Assembly: GCA_028874365.1 (NCBI GenBank)
Contig: JAPPJZ010000079.1
Location: forward strand, 97,610-161,609
Direction of reading: 5' to 3'
Length of the DNA stretch: 64,000 bases
DNA from: Chloroflexota bacterium
GTDB taxonomy: Bacteria; Chloroflexota; Dehalococcoidia; Bin125
Below, in pieces: positions 30,931-45,857 of this stretch. The notes beneath the pieces are model-generated. The model saw nothing but the letters and a program-made list of their open reading frames with translations, made no database searches and was not told where the DNA came from. Every line of letters begins with the position of its first letter. Positions within the stretch are counted from its first letter, which is position 1. The translations under genes were made by a program, and so were the position numbers.

Positions 30931-33306
30931 TTACTGCAATGCGCCCGACGCTACCAGCTCGATGATTTGCTCGTCGGTGTAGCCGAGGAGGTCGCGCAGG
31001 ACGGCGTCGTTGTCGGCGCCCATGGTCGGGGCGACCTGTGGACGTCCGGCGGGCGTTCGGCTAAAGACGATGCGGGCTGCCTCGACGACTGATTTGCCCT
31101 GGGTTGGATGCTCGAGTTCGGCAAAGTGGTTGCGGTGTTGGAGCTGGGGGTCGGCGAAGCAGGCGGCGGAGTCCTGGACGGCGTGGGCAGGAACGCCGGC
31201 GGCCTGGAGGGTGTTCATCGCCTCTTCGTTCGTGCGTGATGCGGTCCAGTCTTCCAGCGCCTGACCGTTGAGCACCGAGTTCAGCGCGGCGCGGTCGGCG
31301 TCGTCACGGCCGGCGATGGCTATCCAGCGGTCTTCGCCCTCGGAGGGGTAGACGCCGTGCGGGGACATGTACGGGTCGTTGTTGCCGTCGGCGAGCCATT
31401 TCTCGCCGGTCAGGCGGTACTGGAGGAAGGCCGGCGTGAGGAAGTGGATGGCGGCCTCCATCTGCGAGACGTCGATGTACTGTCCCTGGCCGGTGCGGTC
31501 GCGCTCGTCGATGGCGGCGAGGAGGGCGGCGGAGGCGAAGCGCGGCGCGACGTAGTCGGTGTATGCGCCGAAGGGTCCGGCAGGCGAGCGGTCGGGCCAG
31601 CCGCAGAGCGGGGTGAAGCCGGCGAAGGCGGCGGCGAGGTTGCCGAAACCGGCGAACTCGGCCAGCGGTCCGTCCTGTCCCATGAGGCACGAGGACATCA
31701 TGATCGCGCGCGGGTTGACCTCGTGGATGGTCTCCCAGGTCAGGTTCCAGCCGCGCATGGCGCGGGGGGTGAACGATTCGGTGACGACGTCGGCCCAGCG
31801 GACGAGGTCGAGGATCAGCTCGCGGCCCTGGGGATTGGCCGGGTCGACGGTCATCATCTGTTTGCCGGCGTTCATGTTGTGGAACATGGACGAACCCTCA
31901 GGCTGGGTCGCCTCGTCGTCGATGAACGGCTGCAGGGTGCGGGCGGTGTCGATCCGGGTGCTGGATTCAATGCGTACCGTGTTGATCCCGAAGTCGCAGA
32001 GCGCTCGGGTCCCGGCGGGACCGGCCATGACCCACATGAGGTCGAGCATCTTGAGGCCGGAGAGCGGCGGCAGGTTCGGCGTGGCCGCGTTTGCTCTGTT
32101 GAGAACTGCCGGGCGGCGGACCTCAGCGAGCACTTCGTCGGTGTGTTCGCCGAGCATTGGCGCGGGTCGGCCGTACTCGATCGGCGTCTCGGAGAGCCGG
32201 GCGAACGGGCCCGGGAATCTGATGGTCTGGCCATTGCGCTCGACGTCGCGCCAGTAGGAGCGGGCGGCGAGGTGCTCGTTTTCGTCGAGATCGTCCATCG
32301 TTGAGACCGGCACGATCAGCAGGCGTCGTTCCTGCGCGACCTGGAAGAGCTCGGCCTTGGTCTTGTCTGCGCAGAGCGCTCCAACCACGTCGCAGCAGCG
32401 GAAGTATTCGGTGATCGGTTCCTGGCCGCTGAGGATGAGGTTGGTGTAGTTGAGCCAGTCCTTGTCGCGGGTTGCCTGGTCGCAGTAGCCCTCTTCCAGC
32501 GCGTACTGCATGAGCCGGTCGGTGAAGGGGCCAATCGCCGCGCCAAACAGATAGGTAATGGCGACGTGTCCGTCCTTGCAGGGCCAGAAGAGGCGGATCT
32601 CCAGCGGTCCGAGGGCTGCGCCGACGGCCGAGCGCAGGAACTGCCCGGAGTTGTTGGCCGCGGCAATGATCCCGGACTGCGTCGCCTGGGCGTAGGCGGC
32701 CTGGGCGGAGACATCGACGTGCTGGCCGAGGCCGGAGCGCCTGCGCTCGTGCAGGGCCATCAGGACGCCCAACGCGGCCTCGGCACCCGCGTGCAGGGCG
32801 GTTTGCGGCAGGCCAACGCGAAGCGGCGGACGGTCCTTGTCGCCGCTCTGGATCATCGGTCCGGCCGCGGCGGCGACGGTGATGTCGGTGGCGGCCCAGC
32901 CGGCCTTGGGTCCGGTAGAGCCGAACGGCGTGATGGCGACATGAATCAGGCCGGGGTTGACTGCCGCCAAGTCCTGATAGCCGAGGCCAAGCGAATCCAT
33001 GGCGCCGATGTCGGCCGATTCGATGACGGCGTCGGCGCTGCGAGCGAGTTCGATGAATCGAGCGCGGCCCTCGTCGGACTGCAGATCCAGGACAACCGAG
33101 CGCTTGCCCCGGGCGTAGGACTGCCAGATCAGGGAGTCCTCGATGTCGCCCTCGTTGGAGCCGTCGGCGAACGGACCGCGTTGGCGGGCGGCGTTGCCCT
33201 CGGGAGGCTCGATCGCGATGACATCAGCGCCCAGGTCGGCCAGGATCATGCCGCCGATCAGGCCGCGGTCGTCGGTGAGGTCGAGAATTTGGTAGTCGCT
33301 GAGCAT
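30931..33306 (-). CDS. Tandem-domain class III (CaiB/BaiF) CoA-transferase family protein
   Basis: The 791-aa protein is made of two consecutive CaiB/BaiF domains. The first begins MLSDYQILDLTDDRGLIGGM with LADLGADVIAIEPPEGN; the second begins at about residue 390 with LSGLKMLDLMWVMAGPAGTR. Typical members have ~400 aa and move CoA between carboxylic acids through an Asp-CoA intermediate. In domain 2 the region MNAGKQMMTVDPANPQGREL is family-like. The start is ATG 33306 with GAGGGG upstream; the frame stays open further 5' but lacks domain similarity. A second fused gene is at 43524. Whether both halves are active is unclear. Confidence 0.88.
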   Translation of the reverse strand: MLSDYQILDLTDDRGLIGGMILADLGADVIAIEPPEGNAARQRGPFADGSNEGDIEDSLIWQSYARGKRSVVLDLQSDEGRARFIELARSADAVIESADIGAMDSLGLGYQDLAAVNPGLIHVAITPFGSTGPKAGWAATDITVAAAAGPMIQSGDKDRPPLRVGLPQTALHAGAEAALGVLMALHERRRSGLGQHVDVSAQAAYAQATQSGIIAAANNSGQFLRSAVGAALGPLEIRLFWPCKDGHVAITYLFGAAIGPFTDRLMQYALEEGYCDQATRDKDWLNYTNLILSGQEPITEYFRCCDVVGALCADKTKAELFQVAQERRLLIVPVSTMDDLDENEHLAARSYWRDVERNGQTIRFPGPFARLSETPIEYGRPAPMLGEHTDEVLAEVRRPAVLNRANAATPNLPPLSGLKMLDLMWVMAGPAGTRALCDFGINTVRIESSTRIDTARTLQPFIDDEATQPEGSSMFHNMNAGKQMMTVDPANPQGRELILDLVRWADVVTESFTPRAMRGWNLTWETIHEVNPRAIMMSSCLMGQDGPLAEFAGFGNLAAAFAGFTPLCGWPDRSPAGPFGAYTDYVAPRFASAALLAAIDERDRTGQGQYIDVSQMEAAIHFLTPAFLQYRLTGEKWLADGNNDPYMSPHGVYPSEGEDRWIAIAGRDDADRAALNSVLNGQALEDWTASRTNEEAMNTLQAAGVPAHAVQDSAACFADPQLQHRNHFAELEHPTQGKSVVEAARIVFSRTPAGRPQVAPTMGADNDAVLRDLLGYTDEQIIELVASGALQ

Positions 33307-35062: not shown

Positions 35063-36223
35063 ATGCCGCTTGGTCTGAGCATCCTGTCGATCTTTGGTCG
35101 CCGCGATTGGCGCGACGAACTCTCGGCGTACCTGGACGACGAGCTCAGCCCGCAGGAGCGAGAACGCGTCGAAACGCGGCTCGCCGTATCCGATGAGATG
35201 CAGGCGTACCTCGCCGATCTGCAGGACATGCGCTCGGTGCTGAGGAGTTTTGCGCCTGCTCCAGCGGCGACTCCATTCCAGTTGACCCCGGAGATCGTCG
35301 ATCGAGGCACGCGGACTGAGCTTGCCGCATCCGGCGCGCCACGAGCGCTGAGAATGTCCATGGCAACGGCGGCCGTAGGTGTTGCCGCGTTCGCTGCGGT
35401 CATGGTGTTCGACGTAATCGATTCTCCGACGGTTACGTTCACGACGACTCAGGCAGGTGATTCGCCGAACAGCGTCCCGACGGCGCAGGTTGTGACGGAC
35501 GAGGTCGAGCTGCAGTCACAATCGGCTGAGGAGTCCGATGTGGCGGCGGTCACCCAGGTGTCGTCCGGGTCGGAACAGCCCGGTCGTGGCGATCCGCCGG
35601 CCGCTGAAACAGAGGAGATGGAGGCCGAGGAGGAAGCGGCGGTGGCGGCAGTCGAGGTCGAAGAGCAAGAGCAGGCAATGGAGCAAGAGGCGCAACAGGA
35701 AGAGGCTGAGGAGAATTGGGAGGCTCAACAAGCGGAGCCGACCCAGCACGCCGACGACGATCCGTCGCGACGAGCGTTAACCGCGGGGCGCAAGGCCAAG
35801 GACGGCGGAGAGGACGATGCCCAGGATGTGACAGCGGCCGGCGTGGTCGCGGGGGATGAAGCGGCGGCAGCCGAAGATGGGGCGGAGGCTTTGCAGTCGA
35901 ACGACGCAGAAGAGACCGTTTCGTCCTTGGCGGATGAACAAGCTGCGGAGCCCGATGTCGCGGCATCCGTTGATGACGACCAGGATGTCGAGGGGTCAAT
36001 GGCTGAGAGACAGTCAGAGACCGAGAAGCGGACGGTCGCGCGGTCGGTCAGACACACCGAATCGGATTGGCCGCTGGAAGAACGACCGCGTTCCCGCTCC
36101 GTCGAACTGGCGACCGACCCGTCGTGGGAGCGACCGGTTCAGATCGTGCTGGCTGCATTCGCAGTGGCGGCGACGGTGTTCTGGCTGACGCTGGCGATCG
36201 TGGACCGACGCCGACGGACATGA
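35063..36223 (+). CDS. Probable anti-sigma factor with two membrane segments and an acidic Glu/Ala/Gln-rich domain
   Basis: The 386-aa protein begins with an anti-sigma-like helix (DELSAYLDDELSPQERERVE, about residues 17-36). The usual His-Cys-Cys zinc ligands are absent. A first hydrophobic segment is at about 98-118. A long, low-complexity Glu/Gln/Ala/Asp-rich region (about 130-345) follows, and a second hydrophobic segment is at 360-380 with a short RRRRT tail. The position 149 bp after the ECF gene supports pairing with it. Its stop overlaps the ribD start (ATGA), an unusual coupling of a regulator with riboflavin synthesis. Confidence 0.7.
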   Translation: MPLGLSILSIFGRRDWRDELSAYLDDELSPQERERVETRLAVSDEMQAYLADLQDMRSVLRSFAPAPAATPFQLTPEIVDRGTRTELAASGAPRALRMSMATAAVGVAAFAAVMVFDVIDSPTVTFTTTQAGDSPNSVPTAQVVTDEVELQSQSAEESDVAAVTQVSSGSEQPGRGDPPAAETEEMEAEEEAAVAAVEVEEQEQAMEQEAQQEEAEENWEAQQAEPTQHADDDPSRRALTAGRKAKDGGEDDAQDVTAAGVVAGDEAAAAEDGAEALQSNDAEETVSSLADEQAAEPDVAASVDDDQDVEGSMAERQSETEKRTVARSVRHTESDWPLEERPRSRSVELATDPSWERPVQIVLAAFAVAATVFWLTLAIVDRRRRT

Positions 36224-37899
36224 GCTCGCGCCCGGTCGGTAGTTCGAGGCTGATGGCTCGAGCGTTCGAGCTCGCCCGCTCGGTGCGAGGAACGACGAGT
36301 CCGAACCCCGCAGTCGGCGCCGTCGTTGCGCGGGGCTCACAGATCGTGGGCGAGGGCGCAACACAGCCGCCCGGCAGCCCGGATCCCGCGTCGCAGTTGG
36401 GCCGACCGACACAGTCACGGGGCAGCGGGGGAGGCGAACGACCCTCGGGTGGTCCGCATGCCGAGGTGATGGCCCTGCGTGAAGCCGGCGATCTCGCGCG
36501 GGGCGCGACGATGTACGTCACGCTCGAACCCTGTGGGCACTATGGCCGCACACCGCCATGCACGAGCGCGATCATCGAGGCCGGGGTGGCGCGCGTGGTG
36601 GTGGCCTACGGCGACCCGGACACCCGAGTCGCGGGTCGGGGCCTGGAACTGCTGCGCGAGGCCGGGATCGAAGTGAGCCTGGGCGACGGCGCCGCCGAGG
36701 CGGCCGCACATTACGAGGCGTACGCGCATCACCGTCGCACCGGCCGGCCGTTCGCGACCGCGAAGTTCGCGGCCTCGCTGGATGGACGGATTGCGTCAAC
36801 GAGCGGCGACTCCCGCTGGATCTCCGGTCCACAGACGTTGCGCTGGGCGCATCAGAACCGGCCGCTGTTCGACGCGATGCTGGTCGGCGTGGAGACGATC
36901 ATCGTCGACAATCCGCAACTCACCGCTCGTCCTGAGAACTGGCAAGGCCCGGTGCCACAGCCGTTGCGAGTGGTGGTCGACAGCCGGGGGCGCACACCGC
37001 TCGACAGCCGCGTGCTGACCGACACGGATTCGTCGGCAACGCTGATTGCCACGACGGCAGCGGCCCCGGAGGACTGGGTCGAGTCGACGCGATCGCGAGG
37101 GGTTGATGTCGAGGTGCTTCCGGCGGAGCCCTCGAGCCAGGGTCGCGTCTCGCTGCCCGCGTTGCTCGATTGTCTGGGTCGGCAGCGCGGTGTGGTGAGC
37201 CTGCTTGTCGAGGGGGGCGGCGAGGTGCTCGGCTCGTTCTTCGACCAGCGCTTGATCAACAAAGTCACGGCCGTGGTTGCGCCGATGATCATCGGCGGCG
37301 ACGCGCAGACCGCGGTCCGCGGCCAAGGAGCCGAGCGGATGCGGGACGTCCTACGGCTGAACGGCATGACGGTGGAACGACTCGGCGACGACCTGCTGGT
37401 TGTGGGTTATCCCAGCCATCCCGAGCGGGAGCAAGACGTTCGCATCCGTCAGGCCGGGCAGTCCGACGCGGACACCGTTCGTGAGCTGTTGGCGGCACAC
37501 GGGAACCAGGATGAGGCGGCCGCGAGCGATTTGTCGGCGGAGGTGCGGGCCGGCGGTGCCGTGGTCTGGCTCGCCGCGATACCGCTGCAGCAACCGCAGC
37601 CGAACCGCGAAGCGATCGACGGCGAAGACATCGTAGGCGTAGCGGTGGTGCGCTTCGATGAGGGATTGGCGGCGTCGGTTGGTTGCCTCGCCGTTCGCGC
37701 CGACGCTCCAGCGATCGCCGGGGAGCGCCTCTTGCATTCCTGCGAGGCCTCGGCAGGCGGGCGCGACTTCGACTGGCTGACCTTAACTGTCGAGACCGCG
37801 CCGAGCTTGACGGATGAACAGTACAAGTCGGCCGGGTATCGGTACTACCGACGTGACGATCGCGGCAACGACATCCTGATCAAGCGCCTGCCTTCGTAG
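36220..37899 (+). CDS. ribD: Bifunctional riboflavin deaminase-reductase RibD with C-terminal GNAT-like extension
   Basis: The deaminase domain carries HAE at residues 80-82 and PCGHYGRTPPC at 104-114, the zinc site of RibD. The reductase domain begins near 178 (FATAKFAASLDGRIAS) and contains VSLLVEGGGEVLGSFF at about 327-342. After residue ~400 there are about 155 extra residues starting VRIRQAGQSDADTVRELL and ending with a YKSAGYRYYRRDDRG segment, resembling a GNAT acetyltransferase. Total length is 559 aa, against ~365 usual. There is also a ~25-residue Gly/Pro/Ser insertion before the HAE motif. The start is ATG 36220, overlapping the preceding stop. The role of the extension is unknown. 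Confidence 0.9.
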   Translation: MSSRPVGSSRLMARAFELARSVRGTTSPNPAVGAVVARGSQIVGEGATQPPGSPDPASQLGRPTQSRGSGGGERPSGGPHAEVMALREAGDLARGATMYVTLEPCGHYGRTPPCTSAIIEAGVARVVVAYGDPDTRVAGRGLELLREAGIEVSLGDGAAEAAAHYEAYAHHRRTGRPFATAKFAASLDGRIASTSGDSRWISGPQTLRWAHQNRPLFDAMLVGVETIIVDNPQLTARPENWQGPVPQPLRVVVDSRGRTPLDSRVLTDTDSSATLIATTAAAPEDWVESTRSRGVDVEVLPAEPSSQGRVSLPALLDCLGRQRGVVSLLVEGGGEVLGSFFDQRLINKVTAVVAPMIIGGDAQTAVRGQGAERMRDVLRLNGMTVERLGDDLLVVGYPSHPEREQDVRIRQAGQSDADTVRELLAAHGNQDEAAASDLSAEVRAGGAVVWLAAIPLQQPQPNREAIDGEDIVGVAVVRFDEGLAASVGCLAVRADAPAIAGERLLHSCEASAGGRDFDWLTLTVETAPSLTDEQYKSAGYRYYRRDDRGNDILIKRLPS

Positions 37900-38678: not shown

Positions 38679-40045
38679 CCGACGCCGAACCGACCACCGC
38701 CCCGAGCTCCGGCAACTCCAGTCAGTCGAAGCCTCGGCGTGCGCGTCGTACGACCCACGCGCGGCGGCGAAAGTCACCGTTCAGTCCGGTGGAGGAAGCG
38801 ATCGAGGCGTTCGCGCTGGGCGAGCCACTGATCATCACAGACGATGAGGATCGGGAGAACGAGGGCGACCTCGCGCTGCCGGCGCAGTTTGTGACGGCTG
38901 AGACAATCAACTTCATGGCGACCCACGGTCGAGGGTTGATCTGCGTGGCGATGGACGGCGCCATTCTCGACCGTCTCGGCTTGCGGCTGATGGTCGACCA
39001 AGGTTCCAACTCCGCACCATTGGGGACGGCGTTCACCGTGTCGGTCGAGGCCCGGTCCGGCGTGACCACCGGGATCTCGGCATCCGATCGCGCGCGCACG
39101 GTCCAGGTGCTCATGGATCCGCACTCCACAGCGGACGACCTGGTCCAGCCAGGGCACATGTTCCCGCTGCGGGCGCGCGATGGCGGGACGCTGGTGCGGG
39201 CCGGCCAGACGGAGGCGTCGGTCGACCTCTGCCGCCTGGCGGGACTGCAGCCGGGCGCGGTGATCTGCGAGATCATGAAACGCAACGGCGAGATGGCGCG
39301 GCTGCCCGACCTGGTGCGCTTTGCCCGCCGGCACAAGATCAAGCTCGTCTCGGTCGAGCAGATCATCCAGTACCGGTTGCGCACCGAGCAGCTCGTTGAC
39401 CGCGTGTCGGAGGCGAACCTGCCAACGCCGATGGGCACCTGGCGGCTGATGGGCTATCGCACCCGCGACCATTCGGAGGAGCACGTCGCGCTGGTGATGG
39501 GCAATGTCGACGGCGACGAGCCCACCCTGGTGCGCGTGCACTCCCAGTGTCTGACGGGCGACGTGTTCTCCTCACAACGGTGCGACTGCGGCGAGCAACT
39601 GGAGATCGCGATGCGAATCGTCGCGGAGGAGCGGCGCGGCGTGATTGTCTACATGGCGCAGGAGGGCCGCGGCATCGGTCTGCACAACAAGATTGCGGCG
39701 TATGCGCTTCAGGATCAGGGGATGGACACGGTGGAGGCGAACCTCGCCCTGGGCTTCTCCGCCGACCGTCGCGACTACGGGATCGGTATGCAGATCCTGC
39801 GTGACCTCGGGGTGCACCGGATCCGGCTGATGACCAACAACCCGGCGAAGCGTCACGGGCTCGCCGGTTACGGCCTGGAGATCGTTGAGCGCGTGCCGGT
39901 CATCGCCCCGGCGAATCCGCACAACGTCCGCTATCTCTCGGTCAAACGGGAGAAGATGGGTCACCTGCTCGATTCCGATGCGATTGAAGTGACCGAATCC
40001 GACGACGACGGGCATCCTCCCACTCGCCGCGCGGCCATCGGCTAG
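38675..40045 (+). CDS. ribBA: Bifunctional DHBP synthase / GTP cyclohydrolase II
   Basis: The RibB half has IITDDEDRENEGDLALPAQF (about residues 51-70), THGRGLICVAM and RAGQTEASVDLCRLAG. The RibA half has HSQCLTGDVFSSQRCDCGEQ, with the three zinc cysteines, then MAQEGRGIGLHNKI and MTNNPAKRHGL. Both active sites look complete. The enzyme supplies the two riboflavin precursors from ribulose-5-phosphate and GTP. A basic N-terminal extension of about 38 residues (ARRTTHARRRKSPFSP) precedes the catalytic domain. It is coupled to ribE by a 4-nt overlap and followed by ribH after 17 nt. Confidence 0.96.
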   Translation: MTDAEPTTAPSSGNSSQSKPRRARRTTHARRRKSPFSPVEEAIEAFALGEPLIITDDEDRENEGDLALPAQFVTAETINFMATHGRGLICVAMDGAILDRLGLRLMVDQGSNSAPLGTAFTVSVEARSGVTTGISASDRARTVQVLMDPHSTADDLVQPGHMFPLRARDGGTLVRAGQTEASVDLCRLAGLQPGAVICEIMKRNGEMARLPDLVRFARRHKIKLVSVEQIIQYRLRTEQLVDRVSEANLPTPMGTWRLMGYRTRDHSEEHVALVMGNVDGDEPTLVRVHSQCLTGDVFSSQRCDCGEQLEIAMRIVAEERRGVIVYMAQEGRGIGLHNKIAAYALQDQGMDTVEANLALGFSADRRDYGIGMQILRDLGVHRIRLMTNNPAKRHGLAGYGLEIVERVPVIAPANPHNVRYLSVKREKMGHLLDSDAIEVTESDDDGHPPTRRAAIG

Positions 40046-40062: not shown

Positions 40063-40551
40063 ATGCCGAGAGTGCACGACGGCGCAGCCAATCCTGACCC
40101 CGAACACGGACCGGCCAGCGGTCTGCGCTTTGCGGTCGTCGTGAGTCGCTTCAACGATTTCGTGACCAGCAATTTGCTCGACGGCTGCATCGAGCACCTC
40201 GAAGAGAACGGCGCCGACACCGACGAGATCGACATCTACTGGGTACCGGGGGCGTTCGAGATTCCGATTGCGGCGCAGAAATGCGCACAGACGGCTCGAT
40301 TCGACGCGGTGATCTGCCTGGGCGCTGTGATCCTGGGCGAAACAGACCACTACCGGCTGGTTGTCGACGGAGCGACGCAAGGCATCGCGCGAGTCGGGCT
40401 GGACACCGGCGTGCCGGTCATCTTCGAGGTGCTGGCCACGCAAACCGTCGCTCTCGCCTTGGCTCGGGCCGGGGGCTCGGCCGGCAACAAGGGCGAAGAG
40501 GCTGCGCAGGCGGCGATTGAGATCGCGCGGTTGCTGCAGACGATCGAGTAG
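40063..40551 (+). CDS. ribH: 6,7-dimethyl-8-ribityllumazine synthase
   Basis: The 162-aa lumazine synthase has RFAVVVSRFNDFVTSNLLDG at the N-terminus, the substrate loop WVPGAFEIPIAAQK and CLGAVILGETDHYRLVVDGA. TGVPVIFEVLATQT lies near the end. The usual GETxH catalytic region reads GETDHY, so the catalytic His is present. It condenses the pyrimidine from RibD with dihydroxybutanone phosphate from RibB. It is the last gene of the riboflavin cluster and ends 156 bp from the convergent selenoprotein-like gene. Confidence 0.95.
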   Translation: MPRVHDGAANPDPEHGPASGLRFAVVVSRFNDFVTSNLLDGCIEHLEENGADTDEIDIYWVPGAFEIPIAAQKCAQTARFDAVICLGAVILGETDHYRLVVDGATQGIARVGLDTGVPVIFEVLATQTVALALARAGGSAGNKGEEAAQAAIEIARLLQTIE

Positions 40552-40707
40552 CGGTCGCTCAGCCCTGTGCGAACGTGTTGTGGCGGCTGCGGAAGCTGTC
40601 GATGGTCGAGGCGCAGTCGACTACGGCGTCCGGACTCATGGCGACATTGAGGGCATTGCGCCCGCCCGCTAGGCCGGGGATGCGGCAGTCATTTCGGGCT
40701 CCGCGCC

Positions 40708-41766
40708 TCAGGCCGTGTTGGCGGCCGAGGCGTACTCGTGGACGCCGAGTTGATCGCGAACATCGTCAGTGGCTTCCTTGGTGAAGTCGTCGAGGGGGAT
40801 GCCGCAGCCGTCGGCGATCCGCACCATGCGCTGGAAGTTGGCCACGATTCCGGCCGCGTCGACCAGCTCCTGCAGGCCAAGCTCGGTCGCGATTCGTTCG
40901 CGCAGGCCGGGCAGGGCGTCGGACTGTCGGACCGCGGCTTCGGCGAACGCGGTCAGCAAGCTGCCATGGGCGACGCCGCTGTCGGCATCGGGATTGACCG
41001 TGCCCTGAAGGTTGAGGCTGTCGAGGGTGCCGCTTCGCTGGCTGCTCTCACGGAGCATGCGTACGTGCGAGGTGGTTCAATAGAAGCACTCATTCAACGC
41101 CGAGACCCGAGCGGCGATCAACTCGATCTGTGAGCGGGATATCGCGCGCAGCGGGTCGGGCATGCGCATCTCGGCGAAGCTGAGGTAGTGACCTTCTGAG
41201 AGGTCGTGCAGCCAACGGACGTTCTCGGGGATCAGCGAGAGGGCGGAGATGACGTTGGCGCCCCATTCCCAGGGTCCGTAGAGCATTTCGTCGCCGGGGT
41301 TGAGTCCGTCCCTCGGCACGATCGGGGGCCAGGAGTACTTCTGCTCGGCCTCAGGCGGGCGCTGCATCGAGGGTTCGCCGCTCGATGGCTGTGGTAGGGG
41401 CTCGAGCGCGAGGCCGAGAGCGCGGTGAAACTCGTCGATCGAGAGCGAGTGCACGACCACGGCGACCAGTTCGACGTATCGATCCTCGGTCATGCCGGGC
41501 ATGGCGATGATCTGGTCGTACCAGTCGCGATTCAGGTTGGCGTTATCGACGACCAGCTTCTGAATGGCGTAGACCGCGGCCTCGGGCAACATCTCGCTGC
41601 CGACGGCCTCGAAGTCTCGCGCAGCGCGACCGATTCTTGCGATCTCGACGCGTTCGGCCCCGGTCCACCAGCGGCCAGGGGCAGCGATCGTCTCCCAGCT
41701 CATGCGCTGGGACGAGATTGTTTTCTCTCGGATCGGCAGGTCGACGCCTGCGTATTCAAAGGCCAT
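40708..41766 (-). CDS. Candidate selenoprotein: two-domain AhpD/carboxymuconolactone-decarboxylase-like peroxidase with in-frame UGA (Sec)
   Basis: From ATG 41766 (GAGGTG 6 nt upstream) the frame runs 229 codons to a TGA at 41079-41077. It continues in frame for 122 codons to a stop at 40708. The residues around the TGA read ARVSALNECFY-U-TTSHVRML. This matches the AhpD-family redox site ALNxCxYCxxxH, with the TGA exactly at the second Cys, giving C227-x-x-U230. The downstream part keeps family features (LVDAAGIVANFQRMVRIADG). A hairpin with the form of a bacterial SECIS begins 19 nt after the TGA. The first domain (residues ~1-120) lacks the Cys pair. The 352-aa product is probably an alkylhydroperoxidase-like reductase. 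A nonsense mutation or sequencing error is the alternative. Confidence 0.75.
41043..41057 (-). promoter_or_regulatory. Candidate bacterial SECIS hairpin
   Basis: On the minus strand TGCTC-CGTGA-GAGCA forms a 5-bp perfect stem with a 5-nt loop whose second base is G. The loop starts 25 nt after the in-frame TGA (41079-41077). This fits the known bacterial SECIS rule of an apical loop with an early G about 16-37 nt downstream of UGA. The lower stem is irregular. Confidence 0.6.
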
Positions 41767-41854
41767 TTCGGCACCTCGCAAACTGCCAAAAGAGTAGCGT
41801 TTAGGCCAGCGCATACCTGATACGCAATCCGATTCCGGGCAAGGAGCCAGCACG

Positions 41855-42646
41855 ATGCCTCAGACACTTGACGTGACCGGCGGCCAACTGATCTACGACG
41901 AGTTCGGCGATGGGCCGGAGACGATCGTCTTCGTGCACGGCGCGGGCGGCAATCACCTGAGCTGGTGGCAGCAGATTCCGGTGTTCCGTGACCGCTACCG
42001 CTGCGTGACCTACGAGGTACGCGGCTGGGGACGAAGCCGCGACGACTCGGGTGAGGGTCGCACGGCGTTCTCGCGAGACCTTGGCGAGTTGATGGACGCG
42101 CTCGATGTCCCCGAGGCGGTGTTAGTCGGTCAGTCGATGGGCGGCTTCTCGATCCTGCCATTCGCCGTGCGCAACCCTGACCGGGTGAGAGCACTGTTGA
42201 TGGCAGACACGTTCCTCGGTATCGACGCGCCTGAGCTGATCGATGAGATGCGCCAGGCGGTCGAGTCAGCGCAGATTAACCAGGAACAGGGCGGATTGAC
42301 GCGGATGGTCGGCCCGGACTACCTCGAGCGCGAGCCCAACGGCGTGTTCCTTTACAACCAGATCAGGGGCTTGAATCCACCGCTCGACCCGAATCAGCCG
42401 TTGGAGTTCGGCCGGGAAGCCGGCGCCGTCTCCAAGGACGAGTTGTCGGCCCTGACGATGCCGACGATCTTCCTGGCCGGGGCCGAGGACGCGATCATTC
42501 CGGCCGAACTGATCGAGCGGGCCGCACAGATGGTGCCCGGCGCGCAGTACATCCAGGTCCCGCGTGCGGGACACAGCGTCTATTGGGAGCAGCCTGAGGA
42601 GTTCAATCGCATTCTTGAAGTGCTGCTGCTGGAGGCGTTCGTCTGA
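41855..42646 (+). CDS. Alpha/beta hydrolase
   Basis: The 263-aa hydrolase has the oxyanion block VFVHGAGGNHLSWW, the nucleophile elbow VGQSMGGFS (Ser near residue 91), the acid in FLAGAEDAIIP and the catalytic His in RAGHSVYWEQPEEF. It resembles the haloperoxidase/enol-lactonase branch. The start is ATG 41855 with AAGGAG upstream. It diverges from the selenoprotein-like gene across 88 bp, so the two may share a control region. It precedes the enoyl-CoA hydratase and CoA-transferase genes by 51 bp, which suggests one operon for acid or ester breakdown. Confidence 0.85.
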   Translation: MPQTLDVTGGQLIYDEFGDGPETIVFVHGAGGNHLSWWQQIPVFRDRYRCVTYEVRGWGRSRDDSGEGRTAFSRDLGELMDALDVPEAVLVGQSMGGFSILPFAVRNPDRVRALLMADTFLGIDAPELIDEMRQAVESAQINQEQGGLTRMVGPDYLEREPNGVFLYNQIRGLNPPLDPNQPLEFGREAGAVSKDELSALTMPTIFLAGAEDAIIPAELIERAAQMVPGAQYIQVPRAGHSVYWEQPEEFNRILEVLLLEAFV

Positions 42647-42697: not shown

Positions 42698-43510
42698 ATG
42701 ACGTACCACGAAGTGATCTACGAGCCCGGCCCGGTCGCACGAGTGATCATGAATCGCCCGGAGTACCGAAACGCGCAATCGCGGGTGTTGCTGGAGGAGA
42801 TCGACCGAGCCTTCCAGGAAGCGGCTGACGATCCGGAGGTGCTCGTGATCGTGCTCTCCGGCAACGGGCCGGACTTCTCCGCAGGGCACGACCTCGGCTC
42901 GCCGCCGGAGATTGCCGACCGCGAGATTCGCGGCTGGGCCGAAGACTTCGTCGGCGTCTTCGATCGGCAGCGGGACACGCGGATCACGAACACGATGCGC
43001 TGGCGCAACCTGCCCAAACCGACGATCGCGATGGTGCAGGGCAAGTGCATCTTTGGCGGCTGGATGGTGGCCGCTTCGATGGACCTGATCTTCGCCTCGG
43101 ACGATGCGCTGTTCCTGCCTTCGCACACGCAGTACTTCTCGGCGCCCTGGGATCTTGGCGTGCGCAAGGCGAAGGAGATTCTCTTTCAGAACCGCTTCAT
43201 CCCGGCTCGCGAGGCGATGGGGCTGGGCTTCGTCAACCAGGTCTATCCAGCCGAAGCGCTGGAGCGAAAGACGCTGCAGTTCGCGAACGAGGTCGCCCAG
43301 CGGACGCCGATGTCGCTGCGCCAGATCAAGCACTCGATCAACAACATGCAGGACGGTCAGGGATTTACCACGCATATCAACGCCAGCTTCATGACCTACG
43401 CCACCGGCGCGGGGTTCGGCAGCCCCGATCCGCGGCTGGTCAAGGGCAGGCGGCAGCTCTCGCCGGTTGCCCAGGCGCTGGCCAAGCTGCAGAAGCCGGG
43501 ACACTCCTAG
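42698..43510 (+). CDS. Enoyl-CoA hydratase/isomerase family protein
   Basis: The 270-aa crotonase-fold protein has the first oxyanion block VLSGNGPDFSAGHDLGS and the second QGKCIFGGWMVAASMDLIFA. LSLRQIKH-like (MSLRQIKHSIN) is near the end. Typical catalytic Glu positions are not obvious, since the second block is followed by an Asp (SMDLIFASDDA), so the exact reaction (hydration, isomerisation or C-C cleavage) is open. It lies between an alpha/beta hydrolase and a tandem CoA-transferase. It probably acts on the CoA ester the latter makes. Confidence 0.87.
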   Translation: MTYHEVIYEPGPVARVIMNRPEYRNAQSRVLLEEIDRAFQEAADDPEVLVIVLSGNGPDFSAGHDLGSPPEIADREIRGWAEDFVGVFDRQRDTRITNTMRWRNLPKPTIAMVQGKCIFGGWMVAASMDLIFASDDALFLPSHTQYFSAPWDLGVRKAKEILFQNRFIPAREAMGLGFVNQVYPAEALERKTLQFANEVAQRTPMSLRQIKHSINNMQDGQGFTTHINASFMTYATGAGFGSPDPRLVKGRRQLSPVAQALAKLQKPGHS

Positions 43511-43523
43511 GAGGATCCGTCCT

Positions 43524-45857
43524 GTGTCGGACGGGAATCTACTCAGCGGAATCCGCGTCGTCGAGTACAGCCGCGACGTGCCGGCGGCAGCCTGCGCGCG
43601 TGAGTTCGCCCGCTGGGGCGCCGACATCCAGACCTTTGAAGCACCCGATTCACTGCTGCGTCTCGCGCCGCCGATGCTTGAGCGCGAGGGCGAAACGATC
43701 TCGCTGCTGCGGGAGTCGCTGAATGTTGGCAAAACGCTGAGGTCGGGCGAGTGGCGGCCGAAGCTTGACGAGGCGGACGTGCTGGTCACCGACGCGCCGC
43801 TGGCGGAGCTCGTCGGCGTCGCGCAGCAGTTCCCGCGCCTAGTCGTGGTGCATTCGTCGCCGTTCGGGACGGATGGCCCCTATTCGCAGTACCAAGCCGA
43901 TGATCTGCTGATCCAGGCGCTCTCGGGATTCGCCGGCACGAACGGACTGGCCGAGCGGGAGCCGCTGGCAGCTCCGGCCGCGATCATTCCGCGCACGATC
44001 GGCATCCTGGGCGCGGTGGCCGCACTGGCGGCACTGCTCGAGCGGATGCATTCCGACCAGGGCGAGTGGATCGAGCTCTCGTCGCACGAGGCATGTTCGA
44101 CGTTGATCATGGCGCTGCGCTCGGAGTTCCTTGGCGAAGCGCTACCGCGCGTCGGCGGGACTCCCGGTTGGTCCGAAGTGATGCAGACGACGGATGGCTA
44201 CATCACGATCTCGCCCTGGTCGAAGGAGACGCTGCGCAACGCGCCGGTCGCCTTTGGTTGCGATCCGCCGCCCGCGGAACTCCTGGAAGGCGACGGACGA
44301 TTCGCGGAACAAGAGCCCTCGAAGGATTACCTGTACCCAGTCATCGAGTCTCTGGATGCCCGGACGATCTGGACGAAGCTGTCGGAACTCGGCTCGGTGA
44401 TGGCGATGCATCGCTCGGCGCGGCAGTTGCTTGACGATCCGCAGCTCAACGCGATCGACTTCTTCCGGACCGAGCATGGCCTGACGGGCGCAGGACGCGC
44501 GATGCGGGTGACCGAGATCGACCACAAGTCGGAACGCTCGGATCGCTTTGCCCGACGCGCGAGACCCCAGAGCTCGACGGGCCCGCTCGACGGTTTGCGG
44601 GTCGTCGATTTCACCCACGCCTGGCTGGGGCCGTACGCCTCGGGGCTGCTCAACGACCTCGGTGCGGAGGTGATCAAGGTTGAGGGGCCGAAACGCCCCG
44701 ATCTCTGGCGCTATGAGGCGATGGGACCGATGCGCGTCGCCGCGCCGGACGCTCATCCCTTGAACGTGCGGCCGAACTTCAACATGGCCAATCGCGGGAA
44801 GCGCACAATCTCGATAGCCCTCGATACAGAAGATGGTCGCGGGTTGGCGCTCGATTTGATCGCCCGGGCCGACGTGGTCCTCGAGAACTTCCGTCCGCGC
44901 GTGCTGCAGAATCTACGCCTGACGCACGAGCACATGCGGGAGGTGAACCCTCATATCGCGCTTGTTTCGTTCTCGGGATTCGGGACTGGGGGCCCGTACG
45001 ACAACTTCCGCGCCAACGGTGGCACGACCGAGGGGAACGCGGGTTGGGACCTGCTCTACGGCTACCGGGGCGAAGCGCCGCTGATGCTGGGCACGATGCA
45101 AGCCGATCCGATCGTCGGCGCGCAGATGGCAGCCTCGGCGCTGGCGGCAGCCCTGTACGCGCAGCACGCGCGAACGGCCATGCACATCGAGGGTTCGATG
45201 TTCGAGTCGGCCGTCGGTTACATCGACGAGTACCTACTGGCCGGGTCGGCTGGACTGGCGATGCCGGAGCGTAACGGGAATCGCCTGCCCGGCGTCGCGC
45301 CGCACGAGTGTTTCCGCTGCCGCGACGGGGCGGACGGCAGCGACGAGTGGACCGCGATCTCGGTCAGGGACGACGAGACCTGGCTGCGGCTCGCTGAGGA
45401 GGCGGAGCTCGATCGTCTTGAATGGCGAACGGCGGAGGGTCGCAAGTCCGACGAGGCCAACCTGGAGGCTGCGCTGACGGAGTGGACCCGGGGCTGGGAC
45501 TCGCGGACGCTGCAGCACCGGCTGCAGGCGATTGGCGTCCCGGCCGCGGCGGTTCATTCAACGTTGACCCACTTGAGCGATCCCCAGCTGTCGGCTCGAG
45601 ATTGGTGGCTGCATCTGACCCACGCCGACACGGGTACACGGCAGTACCAGGGATTCGCGTGGCGTCTGCGCCGCCGTCCGGCCTCCTGCGAGCGGCCCGC
45701 GCCGAGAATGGGTGAGCACACTCGCGAGATTCTGCAAGAGACACTTTGCTTGACGGAGCCAGAGATCGAACGACTCCTGGAAGAGGACGTGATCGCCGGC
45801 CTCACGGCGAGGCGCGACCCGGACGAGCCGCCGCCGAAGCCGATAAGCCCGCGCTAG
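43524..45857 (+). CDS. Tandem-domain class III (CaiB/BaiF) CoA-transferase family protein
   Basis: The 777-aa protein is a fusion of two CaiB/BaiF domains. Domain 1 (from IRVVEYSRDVPAAACAREFA) looks degenerate, with a shortened N-terminal part. Domain 2 begins at about residue 354 (LDGLRVVDFTHAWLGPYASG) and is canonical, with LNDLGAEVIKVEGPKRPD, NMANRGKRTISIALDTEDGR and a catalytic-Asp region. The start is GTG 43524 with AGGAGG 9 nt upstream. It follows the enoyl-CoA hydratase by 13 bp. One active plus one structural domain is plausible. The acid partner is unknown. Confidence 0.87.
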   Translation: MSDGNLLSGIRVVEYSRDVPAAACAREFARWGADIQTFEAPDSLLRLAPPMLEREGETISLLRESLNVGKTLRSGEWRPKLDEADVLVTDAPLAELVGVAQQFPRLVVVHSSPFGTDGPYSQYQADDLLIQALSGFAGTNGLAEREPLAAPAAIIPRTIGILGAVAALAALLERMHSDQGEWIELSSHEACSTLIMALRSEFLGEALPRVGGTPGWSEVMQTTDGYITISPWSKETLRNAPVAFGCDPPPAELLEGDGRFAEQEPSKDYLYPVIESLDARTIWTKLSELGSVMAMHRSARQLLDDPQLNAIDFFRTEHGLTGAGRAMRVTEIDHKSERSDRFARRARPQSSTGPLDGLRVVDFTHAWLGPYASGLLNDLGAEVIKVEGPKRPDLWRYEAMGPMRVAAPDAHPLNVRPNFNMANRGKRTISIALDTEDGRGLALDLIARADVVLENFRPRVLQNLRLTHEHMREVNPHIALVSFSGFGTGGPYDNFRANGGTTEGNAGWDLLYGYRGEAPLMLGTMQADPIVGAQMAASALAAALYAQHARTAMHIEGSMFESAVGYIDEYLLAGSAGLAMPERNGNRLPGVAPHECFRCRDGADGSDEWTAISVRDDETWLRLAEEAELDRLEWRTAEGRKSDEANLEAALTEWTRGWDSRTLQHRLQAIGVPAAAVHSTLTHLSDPQLSARDWWLHLTHADTGTRQYQGFAWRLRRRPASCERPAPRMGEHTREILQETLCLTEPEIERLLEEDVIAGLTARRDPDEPPPKPISPR

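Follow-up and report, generated by a model that had tools for sequence, protein, structure and literature searches.

At the locus considered here, a minus-strand reading frame of an AhpD-like protein is interrupted by a TGA codon, and the question is whether this codon ends the protein or is read as selenocysteine (Sec). The original prediction, made from the letters of the 64,000-nucleotide stretch analysed (the window), had placed the TGA (41079–41077) at the second Cys of the AhpD CxxC pair. Both coordinates and motif proved exact: the codons read TGC TTC TAT TGA ACC ACC TCG CAC, or C-F-Y-U-T-T-S-H with the TGA taken as Sec (U). The frame begins with ATG at 41766–41764 and closes with a terminal TGA at 40710–40708, and the internal TGA is codon 230. 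The features of the locus are as follows.

40708..41766 (−), selenoprotein gene of 352 codons, NF041238 (AhpD_rel_CFYUT)
41077..41079 (−), in-frame TGA, Sec230 in C227-F-Y-U230-TTS-H234; direct reading, TGA in 28/28 family members
41774..41777 (−), probable ribosome binding site GAGG, 7 nt upstream of the ATG; direct reading
41377..41766 (−), N-terminal AhpD-fold domain (residues 1–130), without CxxC/CxxU and with an invariant DE-x-HRA (111–116)
40711..41166 (−), C-terminal catalytic AhpD/CMD domain (about residues 201–352), from Pfam CMD at 208–243 and the predicted fold
41043..41057 (−), bSECIS-type hairpin TGCTC/GAGCA with loop CGTGA, G at loop position 2, apical loop 24 nt past the TGA
40554..40665 (−), decayed remnant of a tandem second selenoprotein copy (paralogue B), its Sec-codon part gone; blastn

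A member of a recorded selenoprotein family

The protein matched the NCBIfam model NF041238 over its full length (351.4 bits against a cut-off of 175, E = 5.9e-105), a model titled 'alkylhydroperoxidase-related (seleno)protein', and the Pfam CMD model PF02627 at 29.3 bits against a threshold of 23. In a 2026 review (PMC13188914) NF041238 is classed as CxxU and identified with 'hypothetical protein 1', which had first been reported in 2005 from four sequences of the Sargasso Sea metagenome (PMC1088965). Family and selenium status are thus already on record, and the window gene is one more member: as a selenoprotein it is real but ordinary. It has the same CFYUT motif and CxxU selenoprotein status as NF041238, with nothing essential different, and is distinguished from the family at large by its origin in a Dehalococcoidia genus where the gene usually occurs as a tandem pair. 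The AhpD-like 1 and 2 selenoproteins of ocean surveys (PMC2398784) also carry CxxU within the AhpD/CMD superfamily, but are filed as separate families (COG2128, pfam02627), whereas NF041238 has its own model. To NF041238 the locus adds a well-documented case in which the SECIS is frozen and one copy of the tandem pair has decayed; it also illustrates that a genuinely recoded gene, broken in two by standard ORF calling, is detectable by plain sequence reading.

Conservation and decoding of the TGA

A protein search of 20 same-family genomes, the source genome included, returned 28 members of the NF041238 type in 14 of them. Thirteen are the window gene and its orthologues, 77–100% identical; the other 15 are 47–54% identical, two of them coming from genome G015 and 13 representing a second gene of the same genus that usually lies next to the first. 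In all 28, and hence in two paralogous lineages, the sole internal stop is a TGA in the same alignment column. Recognisable family sequence had been noted to go on for 122 codons past the TGA, and the members are indeed conserved through to the C-terminus; purifying selection is equal on either side of the codon (dN/dS 0.11 before and 0.13 after, 45 pairs). We also looked for the opposite pattern, relatives without Cys at this position and nothing conserved 3′ of the TGA, and did not encounter it. Among the NF041238 matches listed for 393 genomes of the class, all those that exceed the cut-off and span the core carry one TGA, and a search of 400 phylum genomes returned no match over the cut-off without it. 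SelA was matched in 18/18 class genomes having a listed core-spanning NF041238 match, a co-occurrence that is weak taken alone because SelA is common in the class (265/393). In two same-genus genomes (G012, G013) SelA is present but NF041238 lacks a full-length match, which means that the gene is either dispensable or was missed in these drafts.

The original prediction had proposed that an aligned Cys at position 230 would support Sec, and such a Cys is found in relatives of a single domain. These proteins, from Dehalococcoidia and other Chloroflexota, align with the selenoprotein over the core; 14 have C-x-x-C...H with Cys in the Sec column (CLYC...H forms, for example EREMIAVVVSMQNQCLYCLTSH), and others, filling 36 rows, have C-x-x-U...H, nearly all as CxYU. 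The in-frame TGA therefore lies, conserved, at a redox-Cys column that Cys homologues occupy, the pattern of a selenoprotein. In the Chloroflexota genomes sampled (393 of the class, 400 of the phylum) no full-length two-domain Cys form was seen, and the alignments show Cys/Sec exchange only against the single-domain relatives; in the tree, a branch that is long, though fully supported, sets the full-length Sec forms apart. Many single-domain CxYU genes with an in-frame TGA were encountered in various Chloroflexota (L070–L104), several of them followed, 17 or 25 nt past the TGA, by hairpins whose loops are of GUU type, and one contig (G024:C124) carries two such AhpD-like genes in a row.

A 5-bp hairpin with a loop G had been predicted 19 nt past the TGA, and its position is exact: it lies inside the coding sequence, at nt 20–34 after the UGA. 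Published rules for bSECIS elements ask for a loop of 3–9 nt, a stem of 4–16 bp, G in the first two loop positions, a UGA-to-loop distance of 16–37 nt and an MFE of −7.5 kcal/mol or lower (PMC13188914). The element falls within all of these limits, with a 5-nt loop (CGUGA), 5 bp, G at position 2, a distance of 24 nt and −14.8 kcal/mol, the last being the folding energy of the 47 nt that follow the TGA. The stability of the hairpin is by itself unremarkable (z = −1.2), and the conservation of its codons is the stronger SECIS evidence. All 13 orthologues have the same codons from +6 to +12, and of 345 nine-codon windows the one from +6 shows the smallest synonymous difference (0.089 against 0.385 overall), so that the synonymous sites are frozen. 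The paralogues, at roughly 49% identity, encode different amino acids here yet have a hairpin equally far from the TGA, its loop being GGUCG or similar; the stem has one mismatch in L018 and one in L026. Hairpin scores were higher in Sec than in Cys relatives (Mann–Whitney p = 0.0003, kinship ignored).

The source genome is a 3.1 Mb draft of 82 contigs. It had been noted that the window holds no Sec machinery, and all four genes, whose presence in the genome the original prediction had proposed to check, were found on other contigs: selA on contig 63 (422 bits, genome-wide search), selB on contig 80 as a full-length 705-aa frame (342.5 bits), tRNA-Sec (selC) on contig 2 with anticodon UCA (70.2 bits against a gathering score of 47), and selD on contig 18 (352 bits). 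Absence of selB or selC, which would have spoken against Sec, was thus not observed. The SelD of this genome (L049, G000:C18:83058-83999) is a selenoprotein candidate in its own right, with an in-frame TGA in its C-G-G-U motif (LARCGG-U-GSKF).

These observations bear on three other accounts of the codon. Were the TGA a true stop, the gene would be a pseudogene or encode a protein of 229 residues, and the 116-aa ORF that lies downstream (ATG 41058) would be a gene of its own. As had been foreseen for a standard gene caller, a mechanical ORF list does break the gene in this way, into 258-aa and 116-aa pieces, but the TGA is kept in every family member and in both paralogues, CFY and TxxH stand on either side of it in a single frame that is constrained as far as the C-terminus, the genome has a complete Sec system, and termination here would cut through the AhpD active site; we regard this account as very improbable. 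An error of sequencing or assembly at a TGC or TGT codon might be suspected in a draft of so many contigs, yet the same TGA recurs in 13 separate genus-level assemblies, in the paralogues and in more distant families, and these independent assemblies refute the idea, leaving it a negligible probability. TGA is reassigned in some bacterial lineages, and the codon might be read as another amino acid, through Trp or Cys suppression or a change of code. Against this, the window gene and several orthologues terminate in TGA, dedicated selA, selB, selC and selD are present, and codon 230 occupies the position of a redox Cys in relatives, which makes this account extremely improbable. Pseudogene, assembly error and code change were accordingly rejected on the strength of conservation over independent assemblies and the Sec genes.

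We consider it almost certain, instead, that the gene encodes a full-length Sec230 selenoprotein, of predicted fused AhpD fold and most likely with Cys–Sec chemistry directed at hydroperoxides or other electrophiles. That it is a CxxU selenoprotein of the AhpD family, the central claim of the original prediction, is borne out by the invariant TGA, the Cys of relatives, the sel genes and the NF041238 match. Conservation and the genes present suggest that codon 230, UGA, is decoded through the genome's SelB and tRNA-Sec and the in-gene SECIS, to yield the full-length protein.

Predicted fold, active site and chemistry

The AlphaFold model of the selenoprotein is all-helical with two domains (pLDDT 77, pTM 0.83); it is of moderate quality, with pLDDT under 60 over much of residues 141–200. 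AhpD-type chains match mainly its C-terminal part (Z about 10–13.5), and Sestrin2 matches residues 1–325 (Z = 17.2, r.m.s.d. = 3.5, 245 residues). The earlier description of the protein as two-domain stands at the level of the predicted fold and not at that of sequence, where Pfam recognises only the C-terminal CMD core; as profiles of the N- and C-terminal halves gave no match in hhalign (probability 0.04 on a scale of 100), the second domain is assigned from the fold only.

The CMD match, the AhpD fold and the E...CxxC/U...H signature place the protein in the AhpD/CMD superfamily. Glu215, Cys227, residue 230 and His234 are invariant in the family alignment, at the spacing of the proton relay of Mycobacterium tuberculosis AhpD (E118/C130/C133/H137). 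The C-terminal domain fold and the E-x11-C-x2-[C/U]-x3-H spacing are shared with M. tuberculosis AhpD, 2PRR and 6K40, from which the selenoprotein differs in having Sec as the second Cys, a fused two-domain chain and an N-terminal domain devoid of the motif. The protein is predicted to fold as a fused AhpD dimer whose C-terminal domain would hold the site Cys227-x-Tyr-Sec230-x3-His234, Glu215 being spaced from it as in the AhpD proton relay. The likeliest chemistry would be thiol/selenol reduction of alkyl hydroperoxides or of another electrophile, peroxidase activity being what we infer from the family. Catalysis might proceed through a selenenic acid and then a Cys–Sec bond, with recycling by a thiol reductant. 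The N-terminal domain, which has lost the redox motif, probably serves to stabilise the pseudo-dimer or to shape the pocket for the substrate.

Sestrin2 is itself a fused pseudo-dimer, with peroxidase residues C125, Y127 and H132 in its N-terminal domain (PMC4674687), and Sestrin-like fused dimers of Cys type, in which the N-terminal domain is inert and the C-terminal one bears the Cys, have already been described from prokaryotes (PMC11429811). Human Sestrin2 is the best whole-length fold match to the selenoprotein; both have two AhpD-like domains, one of them catalytic, and C-x-Y-x4-H. The likeness is one of predicted fold at about 10% identity, and we do not extend it to leucine or GATOR2 binding. 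With regard to the features that define Sestrins, the fused pseudo-dimer of AhpD-like domains is found here, as judged from the Sestrin2 match and the model, but the N-terminal catalytic Cys and the modified C-terminal hinge (DDYDY; PMC4674687, PMC11429811) are not, since the redox motif lies in the C-terminal domain. For the evolution of Sestrins, it is of modest comparative interest that a Sestrin-like fused fold is predicted here with Sec placed in the opposite domain. It is also conceivable, though we think it unlikely, that the DE-x-HRA N-terminal domain has a separate ligand-sensing or partner-binding role beside the Sec-based peroxidase domain; this would be a bacterial counterpart of the Sestrin division of labour, with the roles in opposite order.

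Tandem remnant and neighbourhood

Between the selenoprotein gene and the ORF at 40063–40551 (+), which is ribH by eye, follows other riboflavin genes and stands tail to tail with the selenoprotein gene, lies the remnant at 40554–40665. Its two fragments (40591–40665 against L018, E = 5.6e-16; 40554–40603 against L019, E = 4.3e-11) match the final part of the second selenoprotein gene of the tandem, which is intact in related genomes. The second copy has thus decayed by deletion in the source genome, which explains why a single copy was found there. On the other side, an alpha/beta hydrolase gene (41855–42646, +) is divergent from the selenoprotein gene. The plasmid records searched gave no match.

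A scan of the window for TGA read-through genes, based on codon-position GC, returned six further mechanical candidates. Those on the minus strand (TGA at 39574, 42664 and 38225) were discarded, being antisense to ORFs of ordinary genes; those on the plus strand have their TGA at 32302, 23272 and 52743. Elsewhere in the window, RibD (36067–37899, +; deaminase and RibD_C) is extended at its C-terminus by about 165 residues that match no Pfam model and by eye resemble a GNAT acetyltransferase, and the gene at 43467–45857 (+) encodes a 796-aa protein in which two CoA-transferase family III stretches are fused in one chain.
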